Shown here piece after piece: positions 14,001 through 63,780 of a stretch of 64,000 bases of DNA. A program made the translations under genes and the position numbers. The stretch is from Rhabditophanes sp. KR3021 (taxonomy: Eukaryota; Nematoda; Chromadorea; Rhabditida; Alloionematidae): positions 6,138,001-6,202,000 of the forward strand of contig CAUJLY010000004.1 of NCBI GenBank assembly GCA_963281155.1. The letters run 5' to 3'. The notes under the pieces are model-generated. The model was not told the DNA's origin, did no database searches, and was given only the letters and a program-made list of their open reading frames with translations. Within the stretch, counting starts at the first letter, position 1, and each line of letters starts with the position of its first letter.

Positions 14001-17000
14001 ATGCATGGAATTTAGATCCAAAAATAGATCAGATGGTTGTTAATTCACTAAAAATTCATAAACCGAAAGGACCTTTGAATTTTGGTCTGCTTTCGCACAA
14101 AAACTTTACCTCCCTCTACTTACCATTGTGTGGGCCAAAGAAAATTGATAGCCAGCCCATTCCAGCAGCGTTAATGTTATTTGATACTTTCGCTAAAAGT
14201 GTGCATTGGCAAATTAATTCAAGTTTGACAACTATTCACCTAGTTTCAATTATATCCGTTTCAAACACCTTGATGTCTTTAAAGAATAGAACATTAAAGC
14301 ATGTTAGTTATAATGTTTCGGAAAGGAGAAACGGAACAATGCTACATAGAAAGTCGTCAGTCAGAAGTCTGGACAGTACCTCAGAAGTTGATGTCCAAAA
14401 TATGAAACAGATTTGGTCCTTAATAGCTGCTATGCACTGTGTGAATATTAGTGAAATGGTTGAAAATAAAGATACTTTCTGCAATCCAAAGGTGGAATTA
14501 CTAGCAAGAAAGTGGCAAGATAGCTGCATTGAAATCCGCGAAGCTTCACAGGCATTGTTGATTAGAGAATTCAATAGACTTGGAGTAAAAGGAAGGGAAG
14601 ATTTAATCCATGCATGGTCCCAATTCCTACCAGTCAATTTAGATTCTAGTTTGAGTATATTTGGATCAGGAAAAGCCGATAAAGGAGTGTCTAATTCAGG
14701 TTCAGGTACAAACTTTGGAAATGCATTAGGGATAACGGAGATGGTTGTCCCTCCAACATCGAAATCCGCGCCACCAAGGCCGCCTGTTCCCGCCAGACCT
14801 CCATCAGTTAAAGCATCTAATGGGAAAGTTGCGAAGGATGCCACCGAATTACCGAGTATTGAAAGCTGCAATGGTATTCAACAAATACGTAAAAATCAAG
14901 CTACAGCAATCGTACTGCTTGGTGTAATAGGGGCAGAATTCAACTCTCAACTTCAAAACCATTTTGATCTAGCCAGAGCAACTAGCCATTCTCTATTAGA
15001 ATTGCTGATATCTCCACCATCTCTTCTCCTTCCATTAGATACTCCTTTACGGAGGGCTGCTATAGATCTAATTGGAAAGGGATTTACAATTTGGCAACCT
15101 CATTTAGATATTTCAAAAGTATTGCTGGGATTGTTAGAATTAGCTTCAAGTGGGTGCCTTTTTAGTGATCTTAACTAATTTTATTTATTTTAGGGTAACT
15201 TACTTAAGAAAATTAAAAAAGTTTATCATTAAAAATCAACTAGAACATATCAAAAAACAAGTGATGCATTAATATTTCCTAATGTGCTCTTCGTATCCAC
15301 ATTTTGAGAAGTCATTTAGGATAAGTTGCGCGGCTTTCAAGTTTCCTTGGGGTTTGTTGACAATACAAAGTCTAGAGATATAATGCAAGATTGGCTGCTG
15401 GTGAGTTGATGTCTAAGTGCATGGATAAGGATGCTTTCTGCATTTTCGCAGTTGTCTTTGAAGGGTATTCTTTCATGACTACAATTAAGTTCTTTCCAGC
15501 AATAGAAACTTCGTTCAGGAATTTCTCTTTCTTGTCAAAAACGAAATCCAATTCGAGAGAAGAGTTGAAGTAATGTTTGTGAGTGATTACTCTATTTTTC
15601 GGATTAACTGATTCACCAGCATATTTTATGGCATCAATGACGTCTTCCGATTTTCATCCACCAGCGAGAACTGTGGAATCCAAGAATAAGTAAACCCAGC
15701 ATGATTTGTCTCCTTGGTTAGCTCGGAGTTGATCTAGCTGATTTTAACGACTTTTGCTAATGCTTCAGCGGGAGTATCTAACTTAATTAACCTTTTAGAC
15801 ATTGTAATTGTATCATTCCCCCGCTTTCATTACAAGATTAGACAAGCAATGTCCGATTAGTTCTATCGATTTGTACTCGAACATGTCTAGCAAATTGTCA
15901 GAATTTGTTCCTTGTGCCAAGTTGGTTGAAGACGGATTGGCAATTATCATGCATCGTTCCCAAATTGATGCTAATCTAGGTCATAGTTTTTCTTTATATT
16001 TGACACCGAAATAACCAGCAGACTTTGAATATTGATACGTTTCTAATACTTTAGATGACATATGACGGTTTTCATCAGCTGCTAAGTCAGACTTATGTAG
16101 GTAGAGTCTCGAGATCTTGTCATCTGTCTTCCTATGTACCAGAAATTATCCATAAAAGCATATACAACATTTTTACCAATCAGGAGATCGCCAGTTTCTT
16201 TTAATTTTGGCAAAAGAAAGTTGTATAATACTTTCTTTTCAGGTATACCAATAAGTAATTCTGTAATCTCTTTTCTACAATCCGCTAGCTTTTTCTTTAA
16301 TCCCTTGCAAATAAAGAAGCTTATGTGGTGGGGTGACGCAAATCTTTTCAAACTATGTGAGGAAGAACATTTCTTTTCTTTTCCTTGAACTTGATATTGC
16401 TCCCCTCTGGATTACATGTGATTATTAAATCCCACCAAACATCTGAACCTTCCATCTCATCGTAAGCTGCTAAAATCTTCTTGAAAGTTTTAACAGTAAG
16501 CGACCATGAAGTTATATCTAAAAGTTTTACGAATATCTTTTGATAAAAACTTTTCCATTGGCCCTTTTTCTCTAGTGCCTCCAACTACCTTTGTAATTTG
16601 ACAATCATCGTCTGTTTCTGAAGTAAATAAGATAAAGTAATATAAAATTAGACTTACCAGGAGCAACATGATTCTTGCTTCTTGTCAGACAAAGACCTGT
16701 CCCATCAGAACAACTTCTTTTTGGCCTACCAGGTGTCAAACTGTTACTATTTATTCCTTGAGACAAACTGCTTACTCCTCTTCTGATACTTTTGAGAAGG
16801 TCCTCTTGATCTTTGTAGGCTTTTCTTTTTCCACTTTAGAATAAGTAAAACACCAATTGAGGCGATGTTGGCACTAAAATCAATAAGAATGATTCCTATG
16901 CGTTTAATTTGATCTTAAATATACGTAAATAGCCTGAGCTAACATTTAAATTTCAAAGTATTAAAGAACTGTTAATACGCGTCTCTTTTAATTTGATACT

Positions 17001-17829
17001 AAATATAAAATTAATAAAAAATGATGATCTAAAATCTAAACTTCTTTCTTCAAGTGGAGATAAGTTGTCTGGAACTACGCCTGGTACCAGGTGTTTTCCT
17101 TTAACGCCTGCTGCAGATGCTTGTCGAACTGCCCGTCATGCCCTATCTTTGATTGCTTCGGCCCGTCCTCAGGCTGTTATCTTGGCTTTGAGTACAGAAG
17201 TGGCTAGGTTTAATTCAAGTTCTCAACATCAAGCCATTCAACATTCATACATTTCTCCATTGGTAAGATCGAGCGTGGAGGTGTTAAGAATAATTGAACA
17301 GTTGACCGAAAAACAATATAATGAAGTGATTAAATTGATCATTCCAGTAGGGGATATTTTGGTGCACTGTATTGAGGCTCCGACATTGAAAGCAAATACA
17401 TTATCAAAAATGTTCCCTCCCATTCAAAAGTTCCACATGGTCGCTTATTGTTCAACGTCACGGAGAATCGCTATCGGAGGAGCGAATGGGAAGCTGGTAA
17501 TACACGATCTCAAAAGTTCAAAAGCTCAAGTAGTCCAGGCTCACAATCAACCAATCACAGCTCTAGACTTTTCATCTGATGGCAAAGTATTATGTGTGTA
17601 TTGCGCAACAGAGGCAAAAGTATCTCTCTGGCAAAGTCAAATGTCTTTCCTAGGAATGGGTCAAAATTCCCTGAAATGCATGAAAGTAATGCAAGCCCCC
17701 GCTGAATTCCCAATCGAAACACCGGGCGAAACGCCGCAAATCTTTCGAGCTAAAATTATATTCAATGGTCCAAAGTCGTTGACACTTATGTTGCCAAATG
17801 GTCGTGAAAGTCGAATTACATTTGGATAA
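11053..17829 (+). CDS. WDR7: WDR7 / Rabconnectin-3 beta, WD-repeat regulator of V-ATPase assembly
   Basis: Five exons: 11053-11889, 12116-12210, 12264-12969, 13283-15153 and 17055-17829, giving about 1427 residues (human about 1490). With DMXL proteins it forms Rabconnectin-3, which drives V-ATPase assembly on acidic vesicles. N-terminal WD repeats include 'ALWGHKAP', 'TGSLDGQIVIW' and 'LDGQMSLWDAEEGRCID'. The middle part holds 'REDGSIVI', 'SGGIDFSVIVWNI' and 'HSVYVWQME'. After a long spacer comes 'PLRRAAIDLIGKGFTIWQPHLDISKVLLG' region (abbreviated here), and the last exon has 'DACRTARHALSLI' plus a final WD pair. Exon 3 has a tandem NAG acceptor (cagcag), allowing one residue of variation. 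The fourth intron (15154-17054) is 1.9 kb and carries an antisense GIY-YIG-like pseudogene. An AATAAA lies about 20 bp after the stop. Confidence 0.93.
11930..12030. repeat. Tandem repeat in WDR7 intron 1
   Basis: A unit of about 40 bp built on 'ttattgaatatgtcat' and 'tattttgattattttgat' is present about three times, with small differences. It is a local tandem duplication inside the intron. Confidence 0.7.
12976..13095. repeat. Tandem repeat in WDR7 intron 3
   Basis: A unit of about 30 bp ('aacaaacaaatttctttgct' followed by taaaattaat) occurs four times, with point changes between copies. Confidence 0.75.
15260..16850 (-). pseudogene. Broken GIY-YIG-like coding unit inside WDR7 intron 4, antisense to WDR7
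   Basis: On the minus strand several coding-looking blocks follow each other with stops and frame changes. A Lys/Ser-rich N-terminal part (about 16840-16590) and a block with 'SDVWWDLIITCNPEGS' come first. Then comes 'VVYAFMDNFWYIGRQ' (16174-16127), with the VVY and YIG strands of a GIY-YIG nuclease; its later part is 'RLASIWERCMIIANPSS' and 'MFEYKSIELIG' (about 15985-15820). A second module is 'CWVYLFLDSTVLAGG', a stop, 'SEDVIDAIKYAG' and 'SIAGKNLIVVMKEYPSK' (about 15710-15400). GIY-YIG domains are small single-strand-nicking nuclease folds known from homing endonucleases, repair enzymes and retroelements. The unit is not translatable as it stands. Family assignment rests on motif order only. 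Confidence 0.5.
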
Positions 17830-19658
17830 AGATTGTGTAATCCAAATAATAAATTGACTTCACCTCCACATATATTTCATTTATTGACACTTTATGTCAA
17901 TTTATATTTTATACATATATTATAAATACCTTAATATTCACTTATGCTTTGTTTTGTAACTGCCTGTTTAATAAATAAAAGATTTTTACTAAAGATTCAT
18001 CTGCCTGCATGCTAATGGTTCTGAAGGATACTTATTTTATTCCATATCCTGTTTGGTCTGTCCCAAGTATCTGACAAGACTGTCTAGACTTCATAAACGG
18101 AAAAAATTTACAATAACAGTCTTCGCTTTTCAAATATAAAAATGATACATATCAATCTTATTAAAAACAATTATAAAAATATATTCAAGATTCAACTAAG
18201 AATCAAAACTTTGCGATATGCTTTACAGTTAAAATATTGTGTCAGGTGGAGTATACCTGTGACAGAGGAAAGCATGGACAAAGCACAATGTAAAATAATA
18301 AGTTTATTATATTAAATTACAATAGAATAAGGCGGATCAAGGATGATCAAAGTGGCCTCTTGATAATCCTAAAATAGAATTAACTAGTGACGAACACAAT
18401 AATAAATTCATTTGGTAAATTAACATAGTTTGCTTCAGTTCAACAAGACCTGAAAACATGAAATCAAACGAATTCCATTAAAAGATGAATCACATTCAAT
18501 CTCTTAACCTATACTTGTGTATGGATTTTCTCCAATAACATTTTGTACTAAAATTTCTCGTATATAGGTTTTTCCCTTTAATAAGACCAAATTCTTCGAA
18601 GTTTTAGCTAATGACATGGTCGATGCTATTAAATTTGGCACTGAAGCGTCATCAATAGCAAAGCTAATAAAACTATTGTTTGAAAGACTGCTTCCAATCA
18701 AGCCATTTTTCTCAATGAGTTTGATAATTTTCGCCACAAGTTAACTTTCATTATTTGCGAGTTTGAGAAGTTGTTAGCACATGTTGTCTTGACAATTTCT
18801 TTAAGCCTTTCATTCAAAAACAGCCACATTTAATAATACTATCAAGACTTTGTTCCACCAACATTCATTAAGGCTAGTCTGCATTTTCGATTTTTTTCTT
18901 CTACCAGCGTTAATTAAGTTTTCATTAGAATTGGAAATGTCCGTTTGGATAAATTTTTCTTGCTGATCTTCAATAGAACCAAGATGATTTTAATGTGTAG
19001 CAACAAGACATTGTGGTGTACCGTCATAATCTTATGACCGAAAGTGTTTGAGTTTTATTGATGTCCTTGGCAATTTCCTCATCATGTACAAAAGGACTTA
19101 GTTTTAAAAATGGGAGCCAATGTAAATAAATTCTATTTCCAATTCAGAAAGAAAAAAGTTAACAGAACTACAAAAATAACAACTCACTAATCTCATTTCT
19201 TCTATAAGATGTTTCACCCATCTTCAGTTGTTCAATATACACGTCATTGAGTTTCAAGCAGTATAGTGTAATAACAAGGGTATTATTTTAAATAAGTTGT
19301 ACTTATGTAAAAAGCGGCTTATTCGAAAAAATAACATCGGAAAAGAAAGTAGTTTATTGATAAAGAATGCATTTTTAAAACTCAACAGTAGATTGCGGGC
19401 GCCGAATTTCGTAAACAGCCTATTTATTTCCATACAGAATGAGTGCTTTCAACGGTAAAGCTTTGCGAGTGCCTTACAATTCAGACCCCTTGAATGAAAC
19501 GATAGTTTCAAAAATAAAAAAGGAGCATCGTAAAATAGTTATACTTTATTAAAAATTGACATTAACTAATCAGAGCGTTTAGAGAATATCAACAAATTAA
19601 CGTCAATTGACTAAATTTTTATATTTACTTTTCTGTATTGATAGTAATCTTATTAAAA
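17830..19658. other. Intergenic region with decayed minus-strand coding remnants
   Basis: From about 19060 down to 18500 the minus strand shows coding-like pieces separated by stops and shifts. Examples are 'NLINAGRRKKSKMQTSLNE', 'ERLKEIVKTTCANNFSN' and a 77-codon frame at 18504-18737 ending 'NVIGENPYTSIG'. The mix looks like an old transposase or host gene remnant (a hAT-type transposase is one possibility), but no catalytic motif supports a name. The rest is AT-rich with no feature recognised. Confidence 0.35.
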
Positions 19659-22600
19659 TTATAGAAACCGGTGAAGACAATAGTACCCCGGGAAATGTTT
19701 TGAACAGATTTCGATGCTTTGAATGGCTTCATTTGGATCCATCGTTCTAGCAGTGAAGTCTGAACAAGCTTCAGCGCAATATACTTCTCCATTCATAAGC
19801 TTACAGCCAGGGAAATAGACCTCCTCTCCAAAGTTATTTTTGCCTTTTGTAGCACAAACACCTTTGGAATCTATGTAAACCATTATTCTAACGTTTGCAT
19901 TGTTGAAGGTCCAAAGAGAACCATCAATTGCTACATATACGGGGAAGTATCTGGTGGTGATGTCGACTCTGACCGATAAATTGGGTATCATTACATAACC
20001 TATAATAACAAAACTTTAGTACTCTTTTAAGAAAATTCACTTGTCTGGTGGAGTTCGCTAATTGATATTAACAAATCATATTAAATAATACAAATTTGTT
20101 TTAATTATATTTTAAAAGACAAGGATTAGTAAAGTGTTTTTGTTTGACAGCCAAATTTGCTTCACTTATAAAGATCTTTTATACAATTAAGTTGGCATTT
20201 TGATTATGAAGGCAAGTAGTCAATAGTAGAAGTAAAGAACGTCCTAGCAAAATCAGCAATATTGATGCAAGTGTCCTGTTGCTAAGAAGTGAAACAATAA
20301 GAGAAGATGTCAGTGCAGAAGCTAAGTTATCAACTATCCACCATTATAATCAAATGTGTAGTGGTAGATGCATCAAATGAAGCCTATCCCAAACCCTAAC
20401 TACGAATCCAAGATTGTGAAAGGATTGGATTACAAATGTAAAAGCTGTAAATCAACTTTCAATGAGGTCACTTTTCTTGCAGACCATTTAGAGGAAAGGG
20501 TTTGTGCCAAGTTAAAAGCTGAAATTGATGAGACTTTAAAAGAATAAGGAAATTATCTGATGTCAAGTTGCTCGAAAAGGTTATGGGTGAATTGAAGAAG
20601 GCTAAGTCTCGCAGTATATCCAAAGAAAATCAATCTACGTTCTAGTTGGCTTGCCTGCTGATGCTAGCTCAGTACCATTTAACGAATTTAAGAATGGAAC
20701 CTTGTATGATGGTGTTTCAGGCAACGTAGAAAGAAGACTTCTTGAGCACATTTCAGACACCAAACTTCACTTTAAGAGATTCATTCCTTTGAATGACAAA
20801 GAAACAAGAATTATGAATATTTTGAAGAAGGAACGACAACTTGTAGCTTTCTATTGTAATGAATTGCTTTCAAATAAAGCTCTTGCATTTGAGTATGCTA
20901 TCACATTGGAACTACAAAATGTATCGACAAGCATTGACGGATCGGCGCAATCAAATGACGTCATGTCTAAGAAAGATCCAGAAATTGCAAAAAGAATCTC
21001 AGTGATCGCCATTGACAAATCTACTTCTCAATGACATTCTGTCTAATTTGTATTATTTTGTCTCCTTTTAATAAACGCTTTTGATATTGATCAGCTGTGA
21101 TTTTGTATGCATTTTTGACTGTTCTCTACTTACCTAAAATTAAAATAAATTAATATAAGTTAAGACTAATAAACGATTGCCTGGTGGAATTCGAATTGAC
21201 AGTCCCGAATTAATATTCAACAAACCAGTTGGATTAGTAAAGTTGAACACTTTTAGATCAAACCCTGTGCCAAACGTTACATAGGAAGGTATAGTGTACC
21301 TGTGCTTTGATATTTTTTGATGACTAACCGTGATGTTCACATTAGTCTTTTTGTGTATTATTTTATGGCTTGGTTGTTCAGGACAAATTGTTGTGCACTT
21401 ACACTTTTTTGTAGTGGGCATAGGTGGATAGGTGCATGTTGGATAAATCGGACATTCTGTTGTTGTTGGAGGGTAAGTCCAAGTTATTGGGGGATAAGTG
21501 AACGTGATAGGGCATCTTGTCGTTGGTGGATACGTGATAGGGCATCTTGTCGTTGGCGGATACGTGATAGGGCATCTTGTCGTTGGCGGATACGTGATAG
21601 GACATCTTGTCGTTGGCGGATACGTGATAGGACATCTTGTTGTTGGTGGATATGTAAATGTTATTATTCTACAGGTTGTTGTTGTGGGTTTTTTCGTACA
21701 TTTACAAGGAGTAGTGCAACTGCACGGCGTAGTACATTTGCAAGGTTTCTTCGTGGTTGTCGTAGCACATGTTCTAGTTGTTGGAGCACATGTTCTAGTT
21801 GTCGTAGCACATGTTCTAGTTGTCGGAGCACAGGTCGTCGTTGTGGTAGTGGTGGTAGTCGTTGTAGTAGTGGGGTGAATGCAATTATAGAAGGGATAAT
21901 CATACTGCAAGGTTTCAATAACTGTGATCACTATTTTGATATCAATGTAGAATGAGTGAATACTTCCGACTATTTGTGAGAATCTTGTCTCTCCATTAAC
22001 AATTCTAAATCCAGAGTAGTACGTTTGATTATTAACCCATGCAACGGGATTATTTTCAATATCTCCTAATACAATAATTATGTTTCCATCTCGATCAAAA
22101 GTAACAGGGTGTCCTAGAAATATACAAGTAAAATAAAAAAATGACTTAATTTACCGGTTTGATCAATGTATATTGGATAATATCCGGAATTCTCAAATAT
22201 TGAAACTCCATAACCTATTAATAGTTTATAATGATGAGAGGTTAGATTTTATCTTACCGGGCACAAATAGATATCCCTTTGAAACTTTGTAATGTAAATC
22301 AGTTGTTAATTTGCCAAAGTTAGAAATACTGGTGAAATCAAATGTTTGCCAATTTATACTAACACTGAAATAGGATTCATAAACTGAGATATCAACGCCA
22401 GTATTCGGATTCCAGGGATGACAAAGATAGTAGCCCGGGAATGAATTTCCTAATTGGTTAATGATAACGATTGTCTGTTGAATATTAACATATGATGTAA
22501 AACCCCTAGTTGAGGCATTTGAATAAATTATAGCATTATTAATTTCGATGAAGCCAGTACAAATTCTATTGTTCTTTCCTCGCAATAATGGGGCACCATT

Positions 22601-25240: not shown

Positions 25241-25439
25241 GAATAAAAATTGATATTAAGTAACACCTTTTCAAATTTGTTTTTATAGCAACTGATAAGG
25301 ATATAAAATACTTTATTTTGTCTATATTTGCGGCATGGATCAAAAGAGATGTCTCCATTAAAATAACGTTTTCTTTAATTGCTTACTAAATTTTATTAAG
25401 GATAAAATAAACAATACACACTTGTTAAAATATACAACA

Positions 25440-26514: not shown

Positions 26515-26619
26515 CTATTAATTTAAATAAATATTATTCTACATTGGAGTGAACATTTTAAGGAAAATATACATCAAAGGTTTTTTTTAAAACACCGTTT
26601 TTGAATTTAGCACATTGTT

Positions 26620-26860
26620 GGTGAAGAAAACCAAGCTTATGTCTATTTCCTAATTAACTCAAGACAACGCCGTCAACATTCCTGCCTACTATCTACTGTT
26701 CAAGAAAAGAGTTTACTATGTCGACGAGTCTGGAAAAAAGACAGGATTAATCTACACTTTGAACAGTACAATCGTGTTTTAAAAAACGGCAACTTATTTG
26801 ACAGAAAGGAGTCTAGAATGGACAAGATAAAAAACCATCCAGTTGCCAGTACTATCTAAA
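26620..26860 (+). pseudogene. Plus-strand coding remnant, family unknown
   Basis: Between two minus-strand secreted genes the plus strand has about 38 open codons ('NIPAYYLLFKKRVYYVDES', then 'TGLIYTLNSTIVF') and, one frame over, 'KNGNLFDRKESRMDKIKNH'. The two read as one peptide broken by a single shift. I do not recognise it. It sits where the 5' end of the decayed gene should be and may mark the insertion that truncated that gene. Confidence 0.3.
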
Positions 26861-26911
26861 GAATTGACTAGTGACGAATAATTTTAATATTAATTTGTTT
26901 CCCTCGTTTAG

Positions 26912-40772: not shown

Positions 40773-43700
40773 TTAAGCCAGTTGTAATTCTTCAATATTC
40801 TCTTCTCTTGTAAATGACTCCTTAAATTGACCAAGTACTTCGATTAGCTTGTCGATCTTTACCTCACCAACAACTTGATTGCTTCTCGTACGAACATTGG
40901 CGGATTGGTTATCCAATTCCTTTTGCCCCAAAACTAAGATATAGTTAAATTGAGCTAATTGAGCATTACGGATTTGCTTGTTAAGAGTATCGCCACAGTC
41001 TAAGTCATACTCAACTTCGAAGCCAGCTTGGAACAATCGCTCCTTGACGGAATTAGCGTATGGGTTGATGGATTCGTGAACTGTAATAATCTTCACTTGT
41101 CTAGGAGATAGCCAGAAAGGCCACTTTCCTCCGAAAGATTCTGCCAAAATAGCTGTCATACGTTCAATTGAACCGAGAACAGCTCTGTGGATCATGACAG
41201 GTCTGATTTTCGCTCCCTTTGCATCGAAGAATGTTAAGTCAAAACGTTCTGGCAATTGGAAATCCAATTGGATGGTAGCACATTGGAAATTTCTTCTTAA
41301 AGCATCTTGAATGGTAATGTCAATCTTTGGTCCGTAGAAGGCTCCATCACCTGTTAAAAGTTTTATTAGTAATTTCAATAAAAATAAATTTTTGTGTTTT
41401 TTAATAAGTGTTCCAATTACAATCACTGTATCCCAACTGTTCTTTAATACTTTGCACATTCCAAATATGAACATGGCTGGAAGGCACTTTACGTGTCGTC
41501 GTATTTATGCCCTGATTTAATTTTATTACTCATTAATATCACTTTCACAACATCGCCTCATTTCTGGAGAATTTACTCTATAATGGCTGATAAATCAACA
41601 AAAACAAAGACTAAAATAGATGATGCTGAAAAGATTGACAGAGTTTTAAGTCAACCCTTGAACCAAGTAGCATTGAAGAAAAGCCAACAACATCTGATGG
41701 TAGAAAGGCACGGTAGGAAAATGTTACCTAACTTTTTACTGGCGTCGGAAAAAGAGTAATATCTTTGTTGTCTTGAATGTAGGTAAAAGAATATGCGATG
41801 TATATATCATAATATTATTCCACCTGAGTTCCTTTGTGCTGAAGATGCTAAGGACCATGTTCTCTATGTAAGCAAGACTACACAAACTATTGGTACAAGG
41901 ATGAGAAAGCACATTTATGACTACGACAAGGCAGTTGAACTCTATAAAGTGTTCACTGATCAGGAAAAAGCTATCCGTGAAGTTTTCAATGCTGGTCAAG
42001 AAATGATTGCCTTGTATAAGTATTATGCCACAGAAGAGCCTGCTGAAAGTATCGAGCCTATCCTCATTGACTATTTCAGAGATGAGAATACCAATAGTGA
42101 TTCTGGTAATCCATCCCTTGACATTGTCTACCTAATGTTCCCTGAAAAGAATGACGACGTCGCAGAACTGATCTATCAAGACTTTTTGGATGGTAATACT
42201 CGCCTGATTTAAGAAAAGACGCTAATTAATTTGTAAAATACAACTTTTTAAGCTGTTGATTATTTTTAAATCTTTTTTAATAAACTGTTCTAACCTGGGT
42301 TCAATTTCCAAGGGAATCCACTGCCATTCAAAGCTTCTGTCAATTCGGCTTCAGCAGCGTCCCATGTTTCAATGGTTCCGAGATATCCTGTTTCTGGTCT
42401 CGTAGACAGATTGAGGGTAAAGGTAAATCCGAAGATATTTGTGTAGACGTGATTGACAAAGTCAAGACATTTGCCTATTTCGTCCTTGATTTGATCGGGA
42501 CGGCAGAAGATGTGAGCATCATCTTGTTGGAAACGTCTGACACGCGTTAATCCTGTCAAAGCTCCGGAAGCTTCATTTCTATGAAGGACTCCAAAGTCAG
42601 CAAACCTAATCGGCAATTCGTTGTGGGTCTTTGGTTTGGAATCAAACATAAGACAATGTCCTGGGCAATTCATTGGTTTGAGGGCAAACTTTTCCTTTTC
42701 AACGTCAATTTGGAACATATCATCGGAATAATGCTCCCAATGGCCAGACTGTTCCCAGAGTTTGGAGTTGTACATGTTAGGTGATACTACCTCGCTAAAG
42801 CCACGTTGTCTGTACTCCTTTCTGATGAAGTTTTGGAGAGCATTGTAGATGAAGGCTCCTTTGGGATGCCAGAAAGCAGACCCTGGTGACAAAGGATGGA
42901 AGAAATAGAGTTCTTGATCTTTTCCGATTTTTCTATGATCACGCTTAGCGGCCTCTTCTTGGAGGGTAACCCATTCCTTTAATTGCTTGCTGTCAGGAAA
43001 TGAAATTCCGTAAACTCTTTGCAAAGACTCAGCTTTGTTATTTCCTTCCCAGTAAGAAGCAGATGCCTTCGTCACTTTGAAAGCCTTGATCTTTCCAGTG
43101 TTACGAACGTGAGGTCCACGACACAAATCAATCAAAGATCCACAACGGTAGACTGTTGTAGTTTCTGTCTTTACTTTTTCATTCAAGATTCTTTGCTTGA
43201 AAACGTTGTACTTGAACATTTCAAGTAAATCGGATTTCTTCATCACTAATCTTTCGAAGTTTTGCTTGTCCTTGACGACACATTTAGAGATAGACTCGAT
43301 TTTGGGGAAGTCCTCTGTCCCAACACTTCCAGACTCGTAATGCATATCGTAATAAAATCCTTCCTCAATCGGTGGGCCGTAACACAAATGACCCCCACAG
43401 AATCTTTCCATGCATTCTCCGAGAACGTGAGCAGAGCTATGCCAGAAGACGGCCTTAGCCTCATCATTGTCAAACTTCAACAATTCCAACGTAGCATCTC
43501 CTTCGAATGGACGATCAAGATCCTAAAATAAAACATAAATAGACGATTTTAAAGAGTTCTTTAGCTAAAGTCAAATAGTCTGTCCACTACAAAATTTTGG
43601 TGTGTATCAAAATACAATTAAATAGTTTAAAACCTTGACAAAAAAAGCTTCAAGCCAATCTAACAATATCAGTAGTTGTATTATTCTAATAACAAAGCAT

Positions 43701-50993: not shown

Positions 50994-51443
50994 GTTAAAA
51001 CTGCTGTTTTAAGGATAGAATCTAACAAAACTAACTTTGCCGTTAATGACATATTTGTTCCAATTGTTTCTTATCTAGTCGTGGCAAGACCACCACTATT
51101 AAAATCCAAGCGGGTTGGATGCACATTAGATTATAGTTTGTCTTATTAGGGAAAATAGATTATTCAATGAAAGGGCACTTTTTGAACGATGCCCAAATTT
51201 GTTGCTACCACATCGAGTAAGATCAAATGACAGTCAATATTGATGCACATGGATGTAGTAGTATTTAAAAATAGATGCTACTTTTAGCTTCTTTTGATCA
51301 AATATTTTTAAATAATTAAAGTGAAATCTTAGGATTTGTTTTTGATATCAGTTTAACTACATGATATTAATATTTTTAATTAGTGTAAACACTGTCAAAA
51401 TGAAAGTATTTAAACAAATTTGATTGTAAAAGTGACATCAAAG
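50994..51443. other. Divergent intergenic region between CDC73 and the first tandem secreted gene
   Basis: No gene was recognised. The plus-strand frame at 50946-51149 is antisense to the CDC73 first exon and is not called. Confidence 0.4.
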
Positions 51444-52315: not shown

Positions 52316-52453
52316 TGTTGTTGTAATCTTTTTTAACATGATAAACAATTGTAAAGTCATTAAATGTGTTTGTTAACATGTCTACATACCATAAATGGTT
52401 GTAAAAGCGGGCATTTAAAGTTGAAACTCAGAGTCATATTCTTCAATGTTAAA

Positions 52454-53511: not shown

Positions 53512-53940
53512 TTTTATTTACTTATCCATATAAATTACAAATAATACAAATATTGTCTATACGTTAACCATTAAATTTTAAACATTAAATAAACACATTA
53601 TATCCACCATAAATACACAAATAAAGTAGCTAATTATATTTGAACAGACTTCAATTCTTTATGACAGGCCTTAATTAAGTATAACTATTTTATGATTCTT
53701 AGTTTTATATTCATGAAGCTATCGCTTCCTTCCAGGGAGTCTGACTTTTGGTACACTCGTCAATGGTTACTGTTGTAAATACTCTTTCTGGGGAAATAAA
53801 AATGGCTATTCACAAAATTCAGCGCACGTGATAACTGCTTAGTATTTGTTGGATTTATAATTAAAAGTTATTATTTTTCAAAAAGCATATCGTTATGAAG
53901 CCACCCACAACTTGGCTACTTTGAACATAGATCAATTTAA
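53512..53940. other. Intergenic, no gene recognised
   Basis: Convergent 3' ends of the second tandem secreted gene and the LRR gene. AATAAA/TTTATT hexamers are present at 53580-53630. Nothing else was recognised. Confidence 0.4.
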
Positions 53941-55654
53941 TTAGAAGAATGCTTGAAAAACAAAATTGCAAATTGAATTGTCTTGCTTATCGAAATTGTA
54001 TGTTAGGTTTTCTACAATCCAATCTAAGTTAGGTTCGAGTGAGTACATCCTTTTGTGTAGATCAAAAAATGAGTTGCCATAGAATATAACTGTTGCATCT
54101 GTTATTTCATCGTGATAAAAAAATGATTTTGAAAAGGTGTCTTCTTTGATGCCGAGAGTCCAGCAAGCTTTTTCGTGGGTAGGATCATCTGTCTCTGACA
54201 AGAAATCACAGCAACAAATACAAGTCATAATTTCAAGAGATTCTGGTAGTTTGGAGAATTCAGTCTGGCTACAATAAAACTTCAATTCTTTGATTTTTTT
54301 AAAATTATCAAAAAAGTCTGGTGACAAAATAGTATGCTGACTGAATGAAAGTTGCTCAATGTCTGGAAAATGTTCAATTAGCAATTCAAAGTCTGTACTA
54401 GTCAAAGGTTGCCCCTTAAATTCAAGGCATTTAATATGCTTAGGAATTAGACCTAAGCAACTCTGGTATAAAGTATCTGTCGTGGACTTTAAGATATAAA
54501 TACTTGTCTCGAATTCATCCAAAAACTCAGACAGCTTTATTTCAGCTAACGTAACGGTTCTCAAATATTGGGCTTCATTAAGTTTCTCAAATATCGGAAA
54601 AAAGGACTGAGTAAAGGAATAGTTTCGTGGGTTGGCTGCATAAATTCTAAATGTCGTCAACTTGGAAACTAAAAAGTTAATAGATGGTACAAAATAACAT
54701 TCTTTATCCAAATAATCTTACTATTAATTTTATGGAAATAGGTTGCCAGCAAGTCAATCTCAGTCTTTCTACAGAATATTATATCAAGTTCTATGAAACG
54801 CAACTTTGATATCATTTTGCTTAATGTATGCAGGGCACAGTGACTGAATAGACTTATTGTCAATGCAATTCCTTCAAACACATTCATTGAAAATTCTAAA
54901 ACTTCACAGATCGTGTGTTTTTCCTTGTCCGTCGACCACAAAACTTCAGGGAACTTTATCATTTTTAACATACGATCGCCCAATCCTTCTTTTAAGTAAT
55001 ATATAAAGACTAAGGAATGGGAAGCACAAGGAATTAGTGATAATATTTCTAGATTGGGAAATGCTTTAAACCAGGTCTTTCCTTCTTCCCCATAAATTGG
55101 TTCAAACTTGACAGCCATGCACACCACACTCCTTATTTTATCGCATTTTAATGTTCCTATCAATTTAATAAAAATACTTGATGCCAATATGCAATCGAAT
55201 TCAAAGATATCTACAAATGGCAGATAATCAAGTATGGATTGTAGTAATTTGGAAAACTTTTCAAATGAGTTTTCAATTATTGCCTCGCTTGGAAACACGA
55301 CCACAATTTGGAATACATGGTTGTAATGTGACAGAATAATATTTCTCACGTCATTCTCATATTGTCCATCCAATACAAACCGTCCAATTTTTACACTTTT
55401 CTCACTCTAATACAATATTTATTAGCAAACTTGGGGCAACTTACTATCAGGTTAATAAATAAACTTTTGACATACGGGATTTCAATGTCTTCATAAAGTT
55501 GCTTTTCAATTATGGGAATAAAGGTAGGATCTTGAGAACTAATTGTAATAATATCATTGATATTTGTCAAGTAGCTAAATACAGTTTCAACATCCTCCTT
55601 GGTATCGTCATCTTTTTTTGAGATATTAGGCGTCATTTCAATAGATGTAGCCAT
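53941..55654 (-). CDS. Leucine-rich-repeat-like protein, possibly F-box
   Basis: Exons 55445-55654, 54722-55406 and 53941-54668 (introns 38 and 53 bp) give 540 residues. The N-terminal 45 residues ('EDVETVFSYLTNINDIITI') are reminiscent of an F-box helix pair, and the rest has irregular Leu/Ile-spaced repeats: 'FPNLEILSLIPCAS', 'HIKCLEFKGQPLTSTDFELL', 'FPDIEQLSFSQHTILS', 'KIKELKFYCSQTEF'. F-box/LRR proteins select substrates for SCF ubiquitin ligases. The F-box here is weak, so that function is a suggestion only. There is no signal peptide or membrane segment. It is a likely fast-evolving or expanded gene. Confidence 0.6.
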
Positions 55655-56406
55655 TTCGAATTTACGGTTAGTCTTAACAAAATATTAATAAACAAGTATG
55701 ACCTACAGCGAGTGAAAACATATAAATTTACTTATTTGTCATTAACTTAAATATTTTTTTAATATCAAAGACGCATACACACACTTGAGCTGTCACTGAA
55801 CCACGCCAAAAATAAATAAATTTATGAAAATATCGAAAATAGTAGAGTAGTAGAAACTGTTGAAATAGTGAAAATTAATTTTGAATTCGAATTATATTTG
55901 TATCATTTATCAATGGTATCGTCTTATCATATGTAGACATTTGTATCTATTTACGGAAGTATGAACAAAAGACATCTCATGCCAACTAACCATTTAAACA
56001 AACCATTTCAAACAACTGCTTAGGCATATAATAAATTAACTAATTTTTCGACTTTTCAAATTGAACTCTTTATATAAGATGATAAACGTCGTGTATGTCT
56101 TGTTCGCCTTACAGAAGAACAATTCATGGTATAATGCTATTAAGAGGAAAAAAGAGATACTGGAATGGTGAATTATATTAAATTGGGTGTGCTTTGTGAT
56201 GTATAGAAATTAAGTTTATGAAAGGCTTTATTCTTGAGTAGTTCGAACAAAAAGAGGGAAGGTTTTTAATTTTGAATACATTATCAGTTTATGATTAGAG
56301 TACTTGTGGTGTTTTATAGTTATGTGGAAAAATAATGAGGAATGTATAAAAATAATGAAGAATGTATAAAAATAATTTTATTTTCAACTATATAATAAAG
56401 TTATAC
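55655..56406. other. Intergenic, no gene recognised
   Basis: AT-rich, with a short tandem repeat of 'aataatgaagaatgtataaa' at about 56330-56370. No coding frame was supported. Confidence 0.4.
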
Positions 56407-58424
56407 TCATTCGTAACCGTATCCAACTTTATCAGTTTCTGGAAAAGTTACACGGCACCGAGGCAAAGCCAGCTTTAATTGACGAATGATAGAAGGTCTA
56501 TTCGAAATGTATGGCAAAAAATAGAAATGAGCTCGTTGAAGCGCCTCCAGTTTGACTAACCAATAAACCACCGAATCTGAGATTGAAGGATTGAGGACGA
56601 TTTCCTAAAAATAAATAAACAATTATCTGATACTGCACATTTACAAATTGTTGAGTATATAGTAGATAGATGGGTTCACAAATTGTAGTGTTCATAAATT
56701 ACACCACCGAATATGTTGTTTGTATGGAACTAAGGTTCGTACATACTTTTTATAGTGAAAAGTTCACAAACTAGTAAAATGCCTAGTACATTACCCATAT
56801 TATACACTATGCTGAATCTGTTTTATAGACCAAATCGTTAATAGACAGACATTCAAATTTGTAGATACCAACTGTTTATAAACGTTAACTCTTTAAATGC
56901 AGATACTTTATAGTTTTTTATAAGAAAAATGGAATAAACGGATATAATAAATATATTGGCATAATATATTATTGTAGTACACATTGCATAATTATCTTAG
57001 AAGATACTTGAAAATACGGCATAAAAGCAATAAGTGATGAAAATAATAGATGTCAAAACAACTCCGTTGAATATTTTTCTCTCCCATGGCTCAAGCATGT
57101 ACAGTCCAGTAGCTAGTATGTAACGCAAATATAAGGGATGGTAATCATCGGCATCAGAACGACTTGTTACTTTAGTATTAGGCTTGTTACCGTTCTTAAC
57201 CGCTGTCTGTTTACCCATGTTGAAAATGTGAAGAGGTCCTTAGTCTGTTAAAATAAGTATAAAGTTTGTATAAATGAACTCGGTTTGTCGGTAAAAAATA
57301 CTTCAGTAACAAAACAAATTATAAATAAAGATGATAATAAATATTATAGTTTGTTCAGCAAACTAGTTAATCGCTAACACCTTCTCGATAAGCACAAAAG
57401 ACTAACATTCTGGCAATCAATATCAACAGAAGAGTCATAGCAACGTGTAATTTAGAAATGATACATACTACAAAAAGGTTAGATCAACAGTATAGATGGT
57501 CGACGTGCTTAAAACTACACACAATTTGTGAACACTATCTCTTTATATGTAAATATGTAAATATTTTCATGTGTGTATCAATATACTAACTAGTGTAGTA
57601 ATGAATATACCAACTAGTGTAGTAATAAATATATCAGGTAATGTACTATTATATTGTTTGGGGATATTCCGATAAGGAATTATTTTGGTAAAAAATGAAA
57701 CATACCAGATCTTTTAGAGTGTGTGATGGTCTACCCAGTGCTATCTCTTTTATCGCATCGTTTCCGAAATAATCACAAAAATTCAACTTCATACCGCTAA
57801 TGTTATTGCAATGATGAAAGTATTTGAAGCCATTGTCCGCGATGACTGAATCTGAGGCATCAACCTATATAATAAGACATCAGTTATACACGTTTGTTTT
57901 ATAATAAGATAATATATTTGCATAAAGTGTTAGCTTACCTTTACAATATGCACATCTGGTACATGAGCCCATCTTTCCTGATAACTTATTTCTGAGGTTC
58001 TGCTGAACTCTTCTTGCTTCCGCATTCGCGACCTCAACTCTCTTGTTGCATATGTTGATAGTTGCTTCAAATTGTTTTTGTTACTATTTCGTGCGTTTGT
58101 CAAATAACTGAGCACATATTCGTTAGCTTTTGGTAAGTTCGACAAATCAAAACCAGCATTTTTGAGAAATGCTTTCATTTGACTAATAGAAGTAATTACA
58201 CTTCCATCTGATAAAGATACTTGGCTTGCGCCACAATTCATCAACCATTCCAAACATGCCAAATCAGGCCCGAGCACTGCAACTCTTTCAACTTTGTACT
58301 GATTTGATATTCTTTCAACCAACTGCCTCCTGATTCCTGTAAATCTAAAGCTTGCATTACCAGTGTGTCTATATGATTGCTCGAATATTTTGAGATGATG
58401 ACTCAGTAAATGTGGTCTTATCAT
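56407..58424 (-). CDS. DMAC2L: DMAC2L / ATP synthase coupling factor B-like mitochondrial LRR protein
   Basis: Exons 57939-58424, 57706-57864 and 56407-56604, all phase 0, give 280 residues. DMAC2L (ATP5S) and its relatives are matrix LRR proteins linked to ATP synthase and complex I assembly. The N-terminus after '[12 protein letters not shown]' is basic and Ser-rich, a likely mitochondrial presequence. '[19 protein letters not shown]' matches the conserved GPDRAASEWLLRCGA block, '[13 protein letters not shown]' the AIDATDS block. The last exon gives '[19 protein letters not shown]', matching the family C-terminus. The second intron is 1101 bp and contains a complete SPTSS gene on the same strand. 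The start lies 5 bp after an acceptor-like tttatag and 157 bp after TRMT5. Confidence 0.85.
56997..57218 (-). CDS. Small subunit of serine palmitoyltransferase (SPTSSA/B-like)
   Basis: A single-exon frame of 73 residues. SPT small subunits activate the ER serine palmitoyltransferase, the first step of sphingolipid synthesis, and tune acyl-CoA choice. The core '[19 protein letters not shown]' is the hallmark of the family, followed by one membrane helix ('[18 protein letters not shown]'). The N-terminal 26 residues are a basic extension not typical of the human proteins. It lies wholly inside the second intron of DMAC2L, in the same direction. A T-rich AG lies about 26 bp before the ATG. Confidence 0.9.
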   Translation of the reverse strand: MGKQTAVKNGNKPNTKVTSRSDADDYHPLYLRYILATGLYMLEPWERKIFNGVVLTSIIFITYCFYAVFSSIF

Positions 58425-58581
58425 TGTTGCTATAAAAAACGTCAATTATAAGCAATCTACTATTACATCCAAAATACTTTATCCTGTATTGACAGAATGA
58501 AAAAGATTAAATAATATTGTACAAATAAAACAAATTTAGTAACAAAATAAACAAAGAGTCATAACAAGAGGCATAACAAGA

Positions 58582-59941
58582 TTAGACTGATGTTTTTAAG
58601 ATTTTGGCATCAATCTCAACACAATCATTATTATCAAGGGTTCTTTTTTTGCATTCGTTGGCAAAGATGTAATCTGCGGGCAATTGGAATGAACAACAAT
58701 ACATTTCTTTTCTTCCTGCAACATTGCGAACATTGTAAACTTCCAAAAAATCAAGACCATCAATCCCGATATTTTGTTTTACTAATCTTTGTGATTCCTC
58801 ACCAAACCAAGTAGACGGAACATCAACTGAACTTTTAGCAAACAAATAACAATGTACAAAAATAGGAAATTGAAAATCACTTTGATCTTGTCCATGAAGA
58901 AGTGATTTAAGAGCTGGTAAAAAGGTAACCGCAATTGCTGGAAGATTCATAATAACATGGCAATTGATGTCAGTGGATCCTTTGCAAGTTAAGAGGTAAT
59001 TTCTCATGCTCGTTTTGAAAAATTCGGCAGCATCTAAATTTGAAAGTTCAATTAAATCCCCTTCAAGTCTATTTATTTTGACATTCTTTTGCATCCACTT
59101 GACACTTTCTGGGTTTAGATCATTTCCAAAGATCTTACGGACTCCCTTTTTGGCTGCAGGGATGACAAAAGGTCCAACTCCGGCAAATCCGTCAAAAACA
59201 ATTGAGTTGTGGTCTAATTTACTAATTAGACGTTTATGTTCGTTGCCAAGTCGTGAGTTCCAAAAAACTTTCGAGAAATCCATTTGATATCTATTTTTGT
59301 CTTCTATCACTTCCGCAACATAATCTTCCTTCCCTGCCAATAATTCCATTTCGAAGAATCTGAACTCATTGTTGATGGAGTCGATTTTGTTTACAACTGT
59401 CTTGCACCATTTAGTCTTGTCCATGATGATTTGACCGATCAAATGCTTGTAGGGGTATAATTCTTCACGCAAATTGCAATGAGCAATATGCCCAATTTGA
59501 GTGAATCCACTGAAATCAAGATCATCTGGTAGTAAGGCTTTCATCACTCTTTTGATGTCAAAGTCCTCGTAAGTTAACTCGAACTTTTTATAATCCAATG
59601 TGACTTCAGTATCACAAATATTTTTGATTGTGTCTTTAATAATTGGAATGGATGTTTCCGTGATAAGCAGTGGGTTGAAAAGCATTAGGCGTTCTGTTTT
59701 TGAGTCACCGTTAACGATAGGCCTGATTCTATTTAAGGTTGGGATAGTTAATTCCTTTAAGGCAGCAGCTCCTACAAGTCTTCCTACCATATTTGCAGGA
59801 ACTTTGACAAATGGAATTGATACAGTTGTCCTAAAGCATTTTTTTCAATCTAAAACTAATTATTTTGACTTACTTGAATTTATCTTTATCCAATTGAGTG
59901 GATCCGCGAACACATTCAGGAATAATAAAGGGATTTGCCAT
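58582..59941 (-). CDS. TRMT5: tRNA (guanine37-N1)-methyltransferase, TRM5
   Basis: Exons 59874-59941 and 58582-59830 (43-bp intron) give 438 residues (human 509). TRM5 uses S-adenosylmethionine to methylate G37 next to the tRNA anticodon, preventing frameshifting, in cytosol/nucleus and mitochondria. Domains: an N-terminal region with 'FELTYEDFDIKRVMKALLP', then the linker 'HCNLREELYPYKHLIGQII'. The Rossmann core has 'VFDGFAGVGPFVIPAAKKG' (SAM loop), 'IFGNDLNPESVKWMQKNV' and 'HVIMNLPAIAVTFL', where Asn-Leu-Pro replaces the usual Asn-Leu-Pro/Pro-Pro catalytic loop. 'VRNVAGRKEMYCCSFQLP' closes the C-terminus. Start at 59941, after an acceptor-like ttaattag. Confidence 0.94.
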
Positions 59942-60188
59942 TTTAAAAGATCTAATTAAAATCAATCTAGCACTACTTATTTTAGTGCAAAAGTTTGCAT
60001 TCATTTTCAAAGTATGGTTAAAGAAAGGCGCGGACCAACATTCAAACTGTGCAACAACTATTAATTAAATACAGATAAATACTGTTTGAATGTTCTTAAT
60101 CTGTAGATATTTCTATTTAAAGATCAGATTAATTTATGATGCTTCTCTTTGTATATAAATCTGTGGATTTCTTTTTTATATTTAAAGT

Positions 60189-60755
60189 ATGATGTATTTT
60201 GTTATTCCATTAATCTATTTATTTGTTTCTGGTTTGAGATCTATGCCATTATCTGGTCGTGATCGTAATGATTTAGCTGATGTTTCTAATGGCAGGGATG
60301 TTCAAGGAAGCAAATTCGGGAAGTTTGACTATTATGATAAAATTGAGGAATATGTTGATTATAAGGAGGGCAGTAATGCTGGTAAAAAGAAGCACAAGAA
60401 ACAAGCGGAGGAAGATTACGATGAAGAAGACTACTTTACGGATTCTAGGAAAAAGCCAAGAAATAATAAAGACAGTGTAGATCACACAAAAAAGAGAAAA
60501 AACAAAGACGATGGTAACAAAAAAAGAAGAAGACATATGGAAGATAATGATGAGGAGGAAGACGATCGGGAATCTTCAAGAAGAAACCGTAAGCAAGGCG
60601 ATGTTTTTGGAGATGATGAACCGACTGATAAAACAGCTAGAAAAAGAGACAATGAAAAGGATGATTCAGTTGATGAAGATTATCCTCATCGGCGAAAACC
60701 GAGACAAATTCAAGATGATTGGGGACAACATACAAACCGTGTAATTGAAGCTTGA
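60189..60755 (+). CDS. Small secreted, highly charged protein, unknown
   Basis: A single exon of 188 residues. The first 16-20 residues are a signal peptide ('MMYFVIPLIYLFVSGLRS'). The rest is almost entirely Asp, Glu, Lys and Arg in alternating clusters, with Asn and Tyr ('EEDYDEEDYFTDSRKKP', 'KKRRRHMEDNDEEEDD'). It ends 'WGQHTNRVIEA'. No Cys is present. Pairs of basic residues are frequent, so a prohormone is conceivable, but no repeated peptide with a Gly amidation site is seen. An extracellular charged polymer is an equal alternative. It lies about 250 bp from divergent TRMT5. Confidence 0.6.
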   Translation: MMYFVIPLIYLFVSGLRSMPLSGRDRNDLADVSNGRDVQGSKFGKFDYYDKIEEYVDYKEGSNAGKKKHKKQAEEDYDEEDYFTDSRKKPRNNKDSVDHTKKRKNKDDGNKKRRRHMEDNDEEEDDRESSRRNRKQGDVFGDDEPTDKTARKRDNEKDDSVDEDYPHRRKPRQIQDDWGQHTNRVIEA

Positions 60756-60983
60756 GCAATTTCCTACATACTTACTCTTTTAATTGTATGTCTCTAAACA
60801 TATTTAATTGTATCTAAAGGTATAGTATTATGTAAGAGTATCTAAGCATTGACTACATAAAAATGTGCAACGAAGAAAAATTTGTGTATTAACCCATGAT
60901 CACCTTGACGTGCTATATTTGTTGACGTGTAATTAAAGAATAATAAGTTATCGTGTTATTTTATAGGTTTATTTTTTACCAAG

Positions 60984-63780
60984 ATGAACTTATTTTGTAG
61001 CAAGTCTCGCCTCATTTCTCCCAGATTTACCTCGAATCTAACGCGTGCTATCGGCAAAAACTGGTTAAACTTAAAAGATGTTGAACCTATGGACAAAAGA
61101 ATTAAAAAAGGTCAAGAATTTATTAGTCAATATGTTGACGCCAATGACATTGAAAAGGCTGAAGGTATAACGTATTTAACTAAACATTTGTCTGTTGATT
61201 TTGAGAAAATGAATGATGCTATAAAGGTGTATCAAAGGAATCCTAATATTCAATCTTCAAAGGATGTTTACATTAGCTCCAGACCAGAATATATGAAACT
61301 ATTTCAGTCGTTGGCTAATGTACCTGAAGGAATTCAGTTTTTATGCAATTTTAGAGCTGATCTTATTAAACTGCTTAAAACACAAGCTCAAACCAGTCCC
61401 GGGGAATTGTCTCATCTGATTCGAATGGATTTAGTTTTGAAAGATATGCTAACTAATTGGTTTTCATTGAGTAACTTGTCTCTTCAGAGAGTGACTTGGG
61501 ATTCATCCGCCAGTTTAATTCAAAAGCTAGTATCAAAGGAAGCTGTTCATCCAGCCAAAGGTTTGATCGATGTCAAAAGAAGAATGGGAGATAACAGGAG
61601 GTGCTTTATATTCGTTCACTCCGCCATGCCAGATGAACCACTGATCGTTGTTTATGTTGCTTTGATGAATAAGATAGCAGGTAAGTCAGACAACAAACTT
61701 TGTAACAAAAATATCTGACCTTGAACGAATATATTTATTAAAAATACAAATAAAACTAAAATTTCGTGGAATTACATCTTTGAGTACAAAAATCTTTTCT
61801 ACCAAAAGTTTACCAACCAATTTAGCATTTTCAGGAGAGAAATTGCTCACATTTCCTTTCTCAATAATGTGCCGACAATCTCCAAAACTAAGCTGTACTC
61901 CGCGACATCACTTACAGCAAATTTCCACCGAATGACCGTTGTCCTTATGCTCCTTCAGTTGTTTCTCAGAATTAAACACAAAGTCACACTTATCACAAGC
62001 GAATTTCTTCTGTTTATCAAATGGTAATGGTTTTGGCTCTTTGAGTACATGGCATACATACTTTAGAAGTATCCAAAAGTTCCTTGAAGTAGCATCCTAA
62101 TTGCTTAACTTGATTGGAGGTGAGTAGGCTGAGAAATTCAAAGATTTCGATTCTCATAGACAATTATACATCTTTCAATAGCAAGAGCAATGTTGCCGTT
62201 GTACAAAATTGACCGTCTAATTCTAGCCACTTGACGTTGACGTAACTTCCAGTTTTAAACAACTCCCGCATTACATCAATTTTATGAGATAAGAAAGCAA
62301 GTCTATTAACTGTTTTAGCATACTCACGTAAATAACCTATGAATCTTTCTAATCCCCTGTCCTTTTGTCTAACACCAGGATAAAACAAATCTTCATTTGG
62401 AACATAAAGCCCACAAACGTTCTTCTTACTCTCATCCTTTGATTTTGGAACTTTATCAAACAATTTCGGAATCAGCATCTCAGTTGTATAATGAGTGTAT
62501 TTTTCCCTAGCATTGTCGCTAATCATTTTAAGTCCTTCGCAACCGAAGGTTGCAAAATGAGAGTTCGATGAAAATCACTCCAAACATTCGGGACATGTTG
62601 AGATTTCTCCACTCCATCAGCTAATCTTGACAATCTTAGGAACTCACTTTCATTTGAATTAGCAAGAAAACACTAATCTGGCAATACGATGGACAGTTGC
62701 TCCATAATCCGAATTTTTGTCCTTTCCACATGCCGCCACTTTTCTGACCTTGCCTAATCTTATATTAAAATCTAATTAAACTCCCATAATAGCATCTCTA
62801 ACAGATATGTGATAACGTTCTCTTTTCTTATCTTGTCTCGTTTCCTCTTAGCAGCCATGCCAAATAAACACCAGGAGATTAGATGTTAGCAAATCTAAAA
62901 TAATATGACTAATATAAATAAGAAGACAAACACCCCTTATTTTTGTTTAAATAGATGACAAAACACCTTTCATGTTGTAAGCAAATTTTGAAGTAACATT
63001 ATCTCAACCAAAGTAGTTGCTATAAAGCATCTTTAGTGGTTTAAGCTTTAAAACATCGCAAAGTATACATAATAAAGATAATCTAAATTCCCAAGATAAT
63101 TAATAATCATTAAATCAAATCTAGATAACGTGCAAGAGATTGTGAAGGGAATGGATTTGGTTGAAAAAAATGAATTGACAACCGCCAACTACTACTCAAT
63201 TAGTTCCTTACAAGATGGTCTGAAAGGAATTGATTTAGGAAACTTGTTGATTAAATCAGTTGTCAGGGAATTACAAAAAGAGGCCCCTAAAGTTCGTTTA
63301 CATTCGACTATTTCTCCAATTCCTGGTTTCAGAAATTGGTTGTTGAGATGTTTGCATGGCAATTCTAATTTCGAAATTCTAGATCAAAAATCCATCATCT
63401 TGTTAAAAGGAGCAAATTTTGAGACCAGTGATTTATCAAAATTATCAAAAGAATTAATCATCCTAATCGAATCTAATTCTCTAGATGTGTATGAACAATT
63501 TAAAGATTTTTTGATGCATTCTTGTGCAAGATATATTTGCGATGCCCGGACGTTATCAAGTAATTTCCCAATCAACCCTGTTGCGCATTTCCATCTTCAC
63601 AATGGAGCTCAAGTATATCGTTTGAATTGGAGGGGTAATACAAATAGTCGTGGAATCGAACAAAGTTGTGGCTTGATGGTAAATTACTTTTACGACATAG
63701 AAAAAGTTCAAGAAAACAGTGCCAAATATATTAACAACAAAACTGTCCACATTAGCGATAAAGTTAGAAATCTGCTCTAA
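60984..63780 (+). CDS. MLYCD: Malonyl-CoA decarboxylase
   Basis: Exons 60984-61680 and 63125-63780 give 450 residues (human 493). It decarboxylates malonyl-CoA to acetyl-CoA, controlling fatty-acid oxidation, in mitochondria, peroxisomes and cytosol. The N-terminal 'MNLFCSKSRLISPRFTSNL' looks like a mitochondrial presequence. 'GIQFLCNFRADLIKLL', 'LLKTQAQTSPGELSHLIRM' region and 'AVHPAKGLIDVKRRMGDNR' match the helical domain. The catalytic acetyltransferase-like domain has 'STISPIPGFRNWLLRCL' (active Ser) and 'NPVAHFHLHNGAQVYRLNW' (active His). It ends 'VRNLL', without a peroxisomal SKL signal. The single intron is 1444 bp and holds an antisense finger/GIY-YIG pseudogene. An acceptor-like tattttatag lies 18 bp before the start. 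Confidence 0.94.
61750..62880 (-). pseudogene. Zinc finger plus GIY-YIG-like unit in the MLYCD intron, antisense to MLYCD
   Basis: On the minus strand, in order: a Lys/Arg-rich start 'MAAKRKRDKIRKENVITYL', a broken 'CPECLE' finger with a TGA inside, and then a clean 120-codon frame (62164-62526). That frame holds the GIY-type 'VCGLYVPNED', the YIG-type 'LFYPGVRQKDRGLERF' and the helix 'KIDVMRELFKTGSYVNV'. After further stops comes a perfect Cys2His2 finger, 'FACDKCDFVFNSEKQLKEH' with the second His 5 residues on (about 62012-61930). The spacing 'LFYPGV...' to 'MRELFKTG' parallels 'LYDGV...' to 'IMNILKKER' in the 20-kb copy, so they belong together. It is non-translatable as a whole. Confidence 0.5.

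Follow-up and report, generated by a model that had tools for sequence, protein, structure and literature searches.

Introduction

The origin of new spliceosomal introns is a long-standing question, and introners are rare in animals: in the accessible text of a survey of 3,325 genomes, they are reported from two animal groups only, with family median lengths of 30-654 nucleotides (nt) (PMC9860276). According to the same text, introner splice sites are provided by the element, by the duplicated target or by the neighbouring exon, target-site duplications or terminal inverted repeats are found in part of the families, and non-autonomous transposons are the proposed source (PMC9860276). An association between nucleases and spliceosomal introns, which the accessible part of the original report presents as unobserved before, characterizes the shintrons of mirusviruses, where endonuclease genes, some of them GIY-YIG, reside in introns whose borders are spliceosomal and that lack group I or II signatures, and for which a spread through nuclease cutting has been proposed (PMC12768974). 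Homing endonuclease genes are also carried by group I introns, sometimes, as the title of PMC9548176 indicates, on the opposite strand. Here we describe a family of GIY-YIG/zinc-finger elements in the nematode Rhabditophanes sp. KR3021, recognized in a stretch of 64,000 nt (hereafter the window; C4:6138001-6202000) of a 44.8 Mb genome comprising six contigs, C1-C6.

The family shares with introners, as far as the accessible survey text describes them, a sequence common to the introns of different genes that does not reach the exons. Among 23 curated introns, the last 37 nt are common to 16/253 pairs and the first 37 nt to 6/253, versus 0/253 for both the following and the preceding exon. Introner families have medians of 30-654 nt, whereas the curated Rhabditophanes introns span 660-2389 nt and contain a nuclease gene or its remains. 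The likeness to shintrons, within the same limits of the source, lies in a homing-type endonuclease gene placed inside a predicted spliceosomal intron devoid of group I/II signature (Rfam at gathering score: 0 matches in 8 sources, 96065 bases). Shintrons, however, belong to viral genomes, sit mostly in virion genes and show target-gene specificity in the text available, whereas the present elements belong to the nucleus of an animal, where they occupy at least 198 places and many unrelated genes; the called copies are all antisense, and the longest one has two nuclease domains. Since target-gene specificity is not found here, we do not call the family a shintron, although it may work alike. 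Those group I introns, in contrast, are self-splicing and located in ribosomal DNA, while the hosts in Rhabditophanes are protein-coding genes and the Rfam search of the 8 sources returned no match. We file the family as introner-like, coding for a homing-type nuclease; searches of the open-licence literature listed no animal in which introners or shintrons code for a nuclease. With antisense placement in predicted introns in 30/30 copies that received a strand call, of 61 scored, we think it rather probable that the copies at these at least 198 places are selfish, mobile spliceosomal introns, which would spread by the double-strand cuts of the nuclease they are predicted to encode.

Genomic Distribution and Window Copies

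With the element of the TARS intron as query, at least 150 scored matches were obtained from 534 candidates in the same genome (best non-self E 3e-47), two of the 150 with an open frame of at least 400 codons. With the N-terminal half of P0001, the copy with an open frame, 94 matches were obtained. When both queries are merged and the element of a secreted gene (unit 2 below) is added, at least 198 separate places have an E of at most 0.001, mostly fragments; this number is a lower bound, and it bears out the dispersed distribution claimed in a preliminary description of the window. Outside this genome, P0001 alone retrieved no relatives at 1e-3 among 2809 candidates in a search that requires shared exact words. 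A 27-row profile, run against UniRef with an exact-word search, recovered three proteins (P0122, P0123 and P0124), all from Rhabditophanes KR3021. These gene models hold pieces of the family, and their names (DUF695, SBDS_C, GLOBIN) match no element domain. Among PDB sequences the best match was Endonuclease II (E 0.11). The places are unevenly spread: contig C6 (11.2 Mb), which may be the X chromosome, holds 8/198, whereas its length would lead one to expect 49.5 (P 1.7e-15), and of the 187 places on C1-C4, 142 fall within the middle half of their contig.

Two iterated profile hidden Markov models (HMMs), d2 seeded by the TARS unit and d1 by the intact open-frame copy P0001, were run on all 538 open reading frames (ORFs) of the window of at least 40 amino acids (aa), with window rows taken out after alignment. 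Unit 1, in the WDR7 intron (15154..17054, minus strand; host plus), consists of coding remnants on the minus strand, which match at 15375-15653(-) (E 1.3e-15 with d2, 2.8e-13 with d1) and at 15816-15980(-) (E 4.2e-10, d1); the N-terminal half of the intact copy also reaches it, at C4:6153822-6154130 (E 3e-8). Unit 2, in the secreted-gene intron (20000..21180, plus; host minus), is matched through ORF 20606-21031(+) (E 7.8e-11 with d2, 6.1e-10 with d1) and has, by our own reading, a finger-like motif, CX2CX12HX5C (20431..20505, plus), spaced as in P0001. Unit 3, in the TARS intron (41351..42294, plus; host minus), contains ORF 41787-42209(+), with E 5.7e-48 under d2, which it seeded, and 1e-41 under d1, which it did not. 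The TARS exon (410 aa) is 100% identical to a Rhabditophanes sp. KR3021 protein and 85% identical to one of Parastrongyloides trichosuri. For unit 4, in the MLYCD intron (61681..63124, minus; host plus), the match is weak, with ORF 62167-62574(-) at only E 0.0077 (d2) and 0.11 (d1). Given that an unrelated-looking ORF at 60481-60741 scores a similar 0.036, we regard unit 4 as a probable, not a demonstrated, family member; its finger at 61911-62096(-) matches zf-C2H2 at E 0.0016, below the cut-off. The preliminary description had taken all four for one GIY-YIG/zinc-finger family, and the profiles agree for units 1, 2 and 3, with the MLYCD unit as the weak case.

The four large introns listed there were likewise recovered as predicted introns, with the same borders in WDR7, TARS and MLYCD, but the secreted-gene intron ends 6 nt further on, being 1181 nt long (20000-21180) with a GC donor. 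In MLYCD the intron splits a single domain, the Pfam MCD profile being matched over positions 2-70 by the left exon and over 71-253 by its right-hand counterpart. The search for short introns was restricted to 35-65 nt; its training sets were contaminated, and splice-site weights were therefore set by hand. A fifth remnant of the family (26611..26856, plus; E 1.7e-4 and 0.0015) lies between exons, by our own reading, of a second secreted gene on the minus strand. The exon of that gene at the remnant resembles the exon beside unit 2, and the remnant either predates the duplication of the secreted genes or is a second arrival.

Antisense Position in Host Genes

All four window units run opposite to their hosts, as had been noted from the outset, and the bias extends well beyond them. 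An automatic splice-and-coding score was computed on both strands, with the element masked, for 61 distinct copies out of 62 loci, leaving out unit 4, whose element span was not found. These copies are best matches rather than a random sample, and the thresholds (22, with a lead of 6) were set by us. The outcome was 29 antisense calls, one sense call and 31 copies without a call (16 leaning antisense, 5 leaning sense, 10 tied). The sense call, at L044, was rejected, a neighbouring gene having been scored while the host lies on the opposite strand: there the flanks encode a Neur_chan_memb domain (47-160, E 8.4e-16; a further stretch, 205-232, has E 0.007, below the cut-off). With L044 reassigned to this receptor-channel gene, all 30 called copies are antisense. 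A previous unmasked coding score (30 3'-flanks: 17 antisense, 5 sense, 8 undecided) was replaced by the masked one; its sense calls at L032 and L037 came from a more distant gene. Nesting on the sense strand was also discarded as a candidate; several of its 10 sense junctions include, by our own reading, the element's own protein.

The host genes are many and unrelated; they are conserved, and the introns in which the GIY-YIG genes lie are predicted to be of the GT/GC-AG type. After joining of the flanking exons, 22/30 antisense host proteins match a Pfam family, and in 6/30 a single domain crosses the junction (L004, SMP; L050, pyruvate kinase; L056, WD40; L061, EMP70; L067, LDL-A, weakly; L043, adaptor subunit). 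At L042, Ion_trans (2-89) spans junction position 45. As the joined proteins were picked from the antisense strand, these matches support the introns and not the orientation count. A ryanodine-receptor-like gene hosts the open-frame copy itself, between MIR exons on one side and RIH exons on the other, and a second, decayed copy occurs near it on the same strand (L039 5500-6360), with its own AG/GTAAG site.

Element Ends and Proposed Mode of Insertion

Six loci (L018, L042, L041, L055, L061 and L049) have a similar intron end, made up of the ~45 nt that lead to the predicted 3' splice site; in L042 it reads aaattatgttcaatgccgattctgataacaattcattccag (host orientation). The similarity extends inwards into the element and stops at the exon, the exons being unrelated. 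An open frame is kept across the joined exons of L042 (an ERG-type channel, by our own reading), L049 (LST-2-like), L061 and L055. In this one subfamily the element constitutes the intron as far as its predicted 3' end.

At the opposite end, several copies contain a stretch of 40-50 nt with a CTAAC-like branch site and with TTTTATTTTAG, the latter followed directly by GTGAGT or GTAAGT. A module AG/GTRA located 25-70 nt after the donor was found in 6/25 introns, versus a mean of 0.05 (max 2) in 300 shuffles, and in none of the deeper windows. The pattern was written after the sites had been seen, four of the six belong to one subfamily, and two introns (L013, L015) were added on account of it, their exclusion leaving 4/23. 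The second copy of L039, L004, L030 and unit 2 look alike and fall outside the pattern. In unit 1, one of the six, the predicted mini-intron (15154..15193, plus) ends with TTTATTTTAG, which is followed by a recursive-splice-like GGTAAC; that of unit 2 (21134..21180, minus) ends with TTTTAATTTTAG beside GTAAGT and is not matched by the pattern. From this arrangement we predict that, in some copies, the mini-intron and the strong 5' splice site it abuts form a recursive splice site. In stwintrons and recursive splicing, two introns are removed by consecutive splicing. In a stwintron a splice signal of the outer intron is interrupted by the internal one, unlike in the present family, where the predicted first intron would stop immediately ahead of the second donor and forms a terminal part of the nuclease-coding element.

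Direct repeats were seen in some copies. In unit 1 an exact 10-nt repeat, CTTCAAGTGG, occurs at both predicted splice sites of the host, 5' (15144..15153) and 3' (17048..17057), with control p values of 0.002 and 0.004, uncorrected for the 23-24 introns tested. If the flanks are fused at a single copy of the repeat, the host frame is, by our own reading, preserved, and such a duplication across coding sequence would fit an event of intron gain. In unit 2, TCCACCAGACAA (20041..20052, minus) is located upstream, in host sense, of a retained 45-nt host intron, and its partner TCCACCAGGCAA (21177-21188) is alike in 11/12 nt. At the 5' splice site of the retained short intron, the exact repeat measures 9 nt in L032 (p 0.013) and 8 nt in unit 2 (p 0.04), both uncorrected for 24 introns, which would fit an element landing on a 5' splice site already in place.

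These observations lead us to put forward the following scenario. The two-domain nuclease would cut DNA at exonic sites or at 5' splice sites, and repair of the break would bring a copy of the element into the cut. The host would then splice the copy out through splice signals on the strand opposite to the element's gene; such signals would force the antisense orientation, which would be built in by their layout and not only selected. Mini-intron and adjoining 5' splice site would allow an intron of ~1-2 kb to be removed in two predicted steps. Mobility, cutting and splicing of the copies are what we infer. The complete version, in which an animal would have autonomous introners that encode, on their opposite strand, a two-headed nuclease of the homing type, enter proto-splice or 5' splice sites, supply their own splice signals and contain a built-in recursive splice site, is put forward tentatively, its chances being slightly under even. 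Target-site duplication was tried and rejected as a general mark: the mean longest match is 6.0 versus 5.7 (n=24), and duplications over the whole set do not exceed chance (permutation P=0.051, n=23, L037 dropped).

In the foremost alternative, the elements enter pre-existing introns only, and the antisense copies are those left by selection against premature polyadenylation, a process that possibly contributes to the bias in any case. The apparently complete host intron of 43-45 nt that L032 and unit 2 retain downstream of the element agrees with such entry, as do the exact repeats of 9 and 8 nt described above. On the other hand, at the six loci with a common end, element sequence runs to the acceptor with no remainder of a host intron, the 10-nt repeat of unit 1 spans coding sequence, and not one called copy is in sense orientation. 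Taken together, we judge entry into existing introns alone to be unlikely, about one chance in a handful, and retain insertion by the element's own nuclease as the preferred explanation.

The Predicted Nuclease

P0001, the longest copy (442 codons), encodes two finger-like motifs and two GIY-YIG domains, in the sequence zinc finger, GIY-YIG, zinc finger, GIY-YIG; the family profiles match both halves. The preliminary description expected Pfam to recover GIY-YIG. This is the case for the whole of P0001 (PF01541, 26.3 bits, cut-off 22.6), with domain 1 as the best stretch and domain 2 appearing only at relaxed E, but units 2 (0.0048) and 3 alone fall below the cut-off. At E 0.01, GIY-YIG is detected in 7/27 aligned members and LEM-3_GIY-YIG in 5/27, and domain 2 of P0001 resembles the group I intron endonuclease family TIGR01453 at E 0.0023, below the cut-off. 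The catalytic residues of GIY-YIG nucleases are Tyr, Tyr, Arg, Glu and Asn, in that order. Both domains have it, as VYVF 85, YYIG 96, IRRF 105, IIERC 158 and VTNLS 170 in domain 1, and DIYLF 296, IYVG 321, RKRM 330, NVETILI 382 and TTNSDSG 395 in domain 2. The predicted structure of unit 3 alone was poor (predicted local distance difference test, pLDDT, 49.1). For domain 2, the median ratio of nonsynonymous to synonymous divergence (dN/dS) is 0.44 (237/1271 pairs, dS<1.5), that is, in sequence comparisons between copies silent differences outnumber amino-acid-changing ones. L018 and L049, both on C6, differ at ~5 sites in the 92 codons of domain 1, their domain-2 stretch having 83% DNA identity, a contrast suggesting that one half has recently been copied or converted.

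The nuclease could instead be an accessory to copies mobilised by another element, whose transposase or reverse transcriptase (RT) resides elsewhere, and GIY-YIG endonucleases are indeed known from Penelope-like elements. These have the RT in the same element, whereas no RT family was found in P0001 and neither RT nor transposase families at E 0.01 in the 27 aligned members, most of them partial, which agrees with the absence of both noted at the start. Moreover, the intron of the open-frame copy holds no additional frame of at least 110 codons, and dN/dS between copies is below 1. One locus, L040 (C1:7291000-7297500), points in the other direction: its open frame of 509 codons, in which a single finger-like motif accompanies a single GIY-YIG domain, is situated near Helitron-helicase-like and endonuclease-like ORFs (own reading). 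No host intron was found at L040, a possible exception to the intronic rule. We consider such a helper improbable, roughly half as credible as entry into existing introns.

LEM-3/ANKLE1 proteins have ankyrin repeats and a LEM domain beside GIY-YIG. An ordinary host family of this kind, duplicated and then decayed, would explain the LEM-3_GIY-YIG matches in 5/27 members, but is very hard to reconcile with at least 198 dispersed places, termini in common while flanking exons are not, called copies nested antisense, and a P0001 without ankyrin or LEM family at E 1, where finger-like motifs stand instead.

Implications

With at least 198 matching places, among them one that keeps a long open frame, Rhabditophanes would offer a free-living worm in which intron gain driven by a nuclease can be tested. 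From the predicted recursive splice site comes a second testable idea, namely that elements adapt their ends for removal from a short-intron genome. If autonomous introners are indeed at work in Rhabditophanes, they would represent the first nuclease-driven system of intron gain in a cellular genome, in which the recursive site would permit the removal of long introns where introns are otherwise very short.
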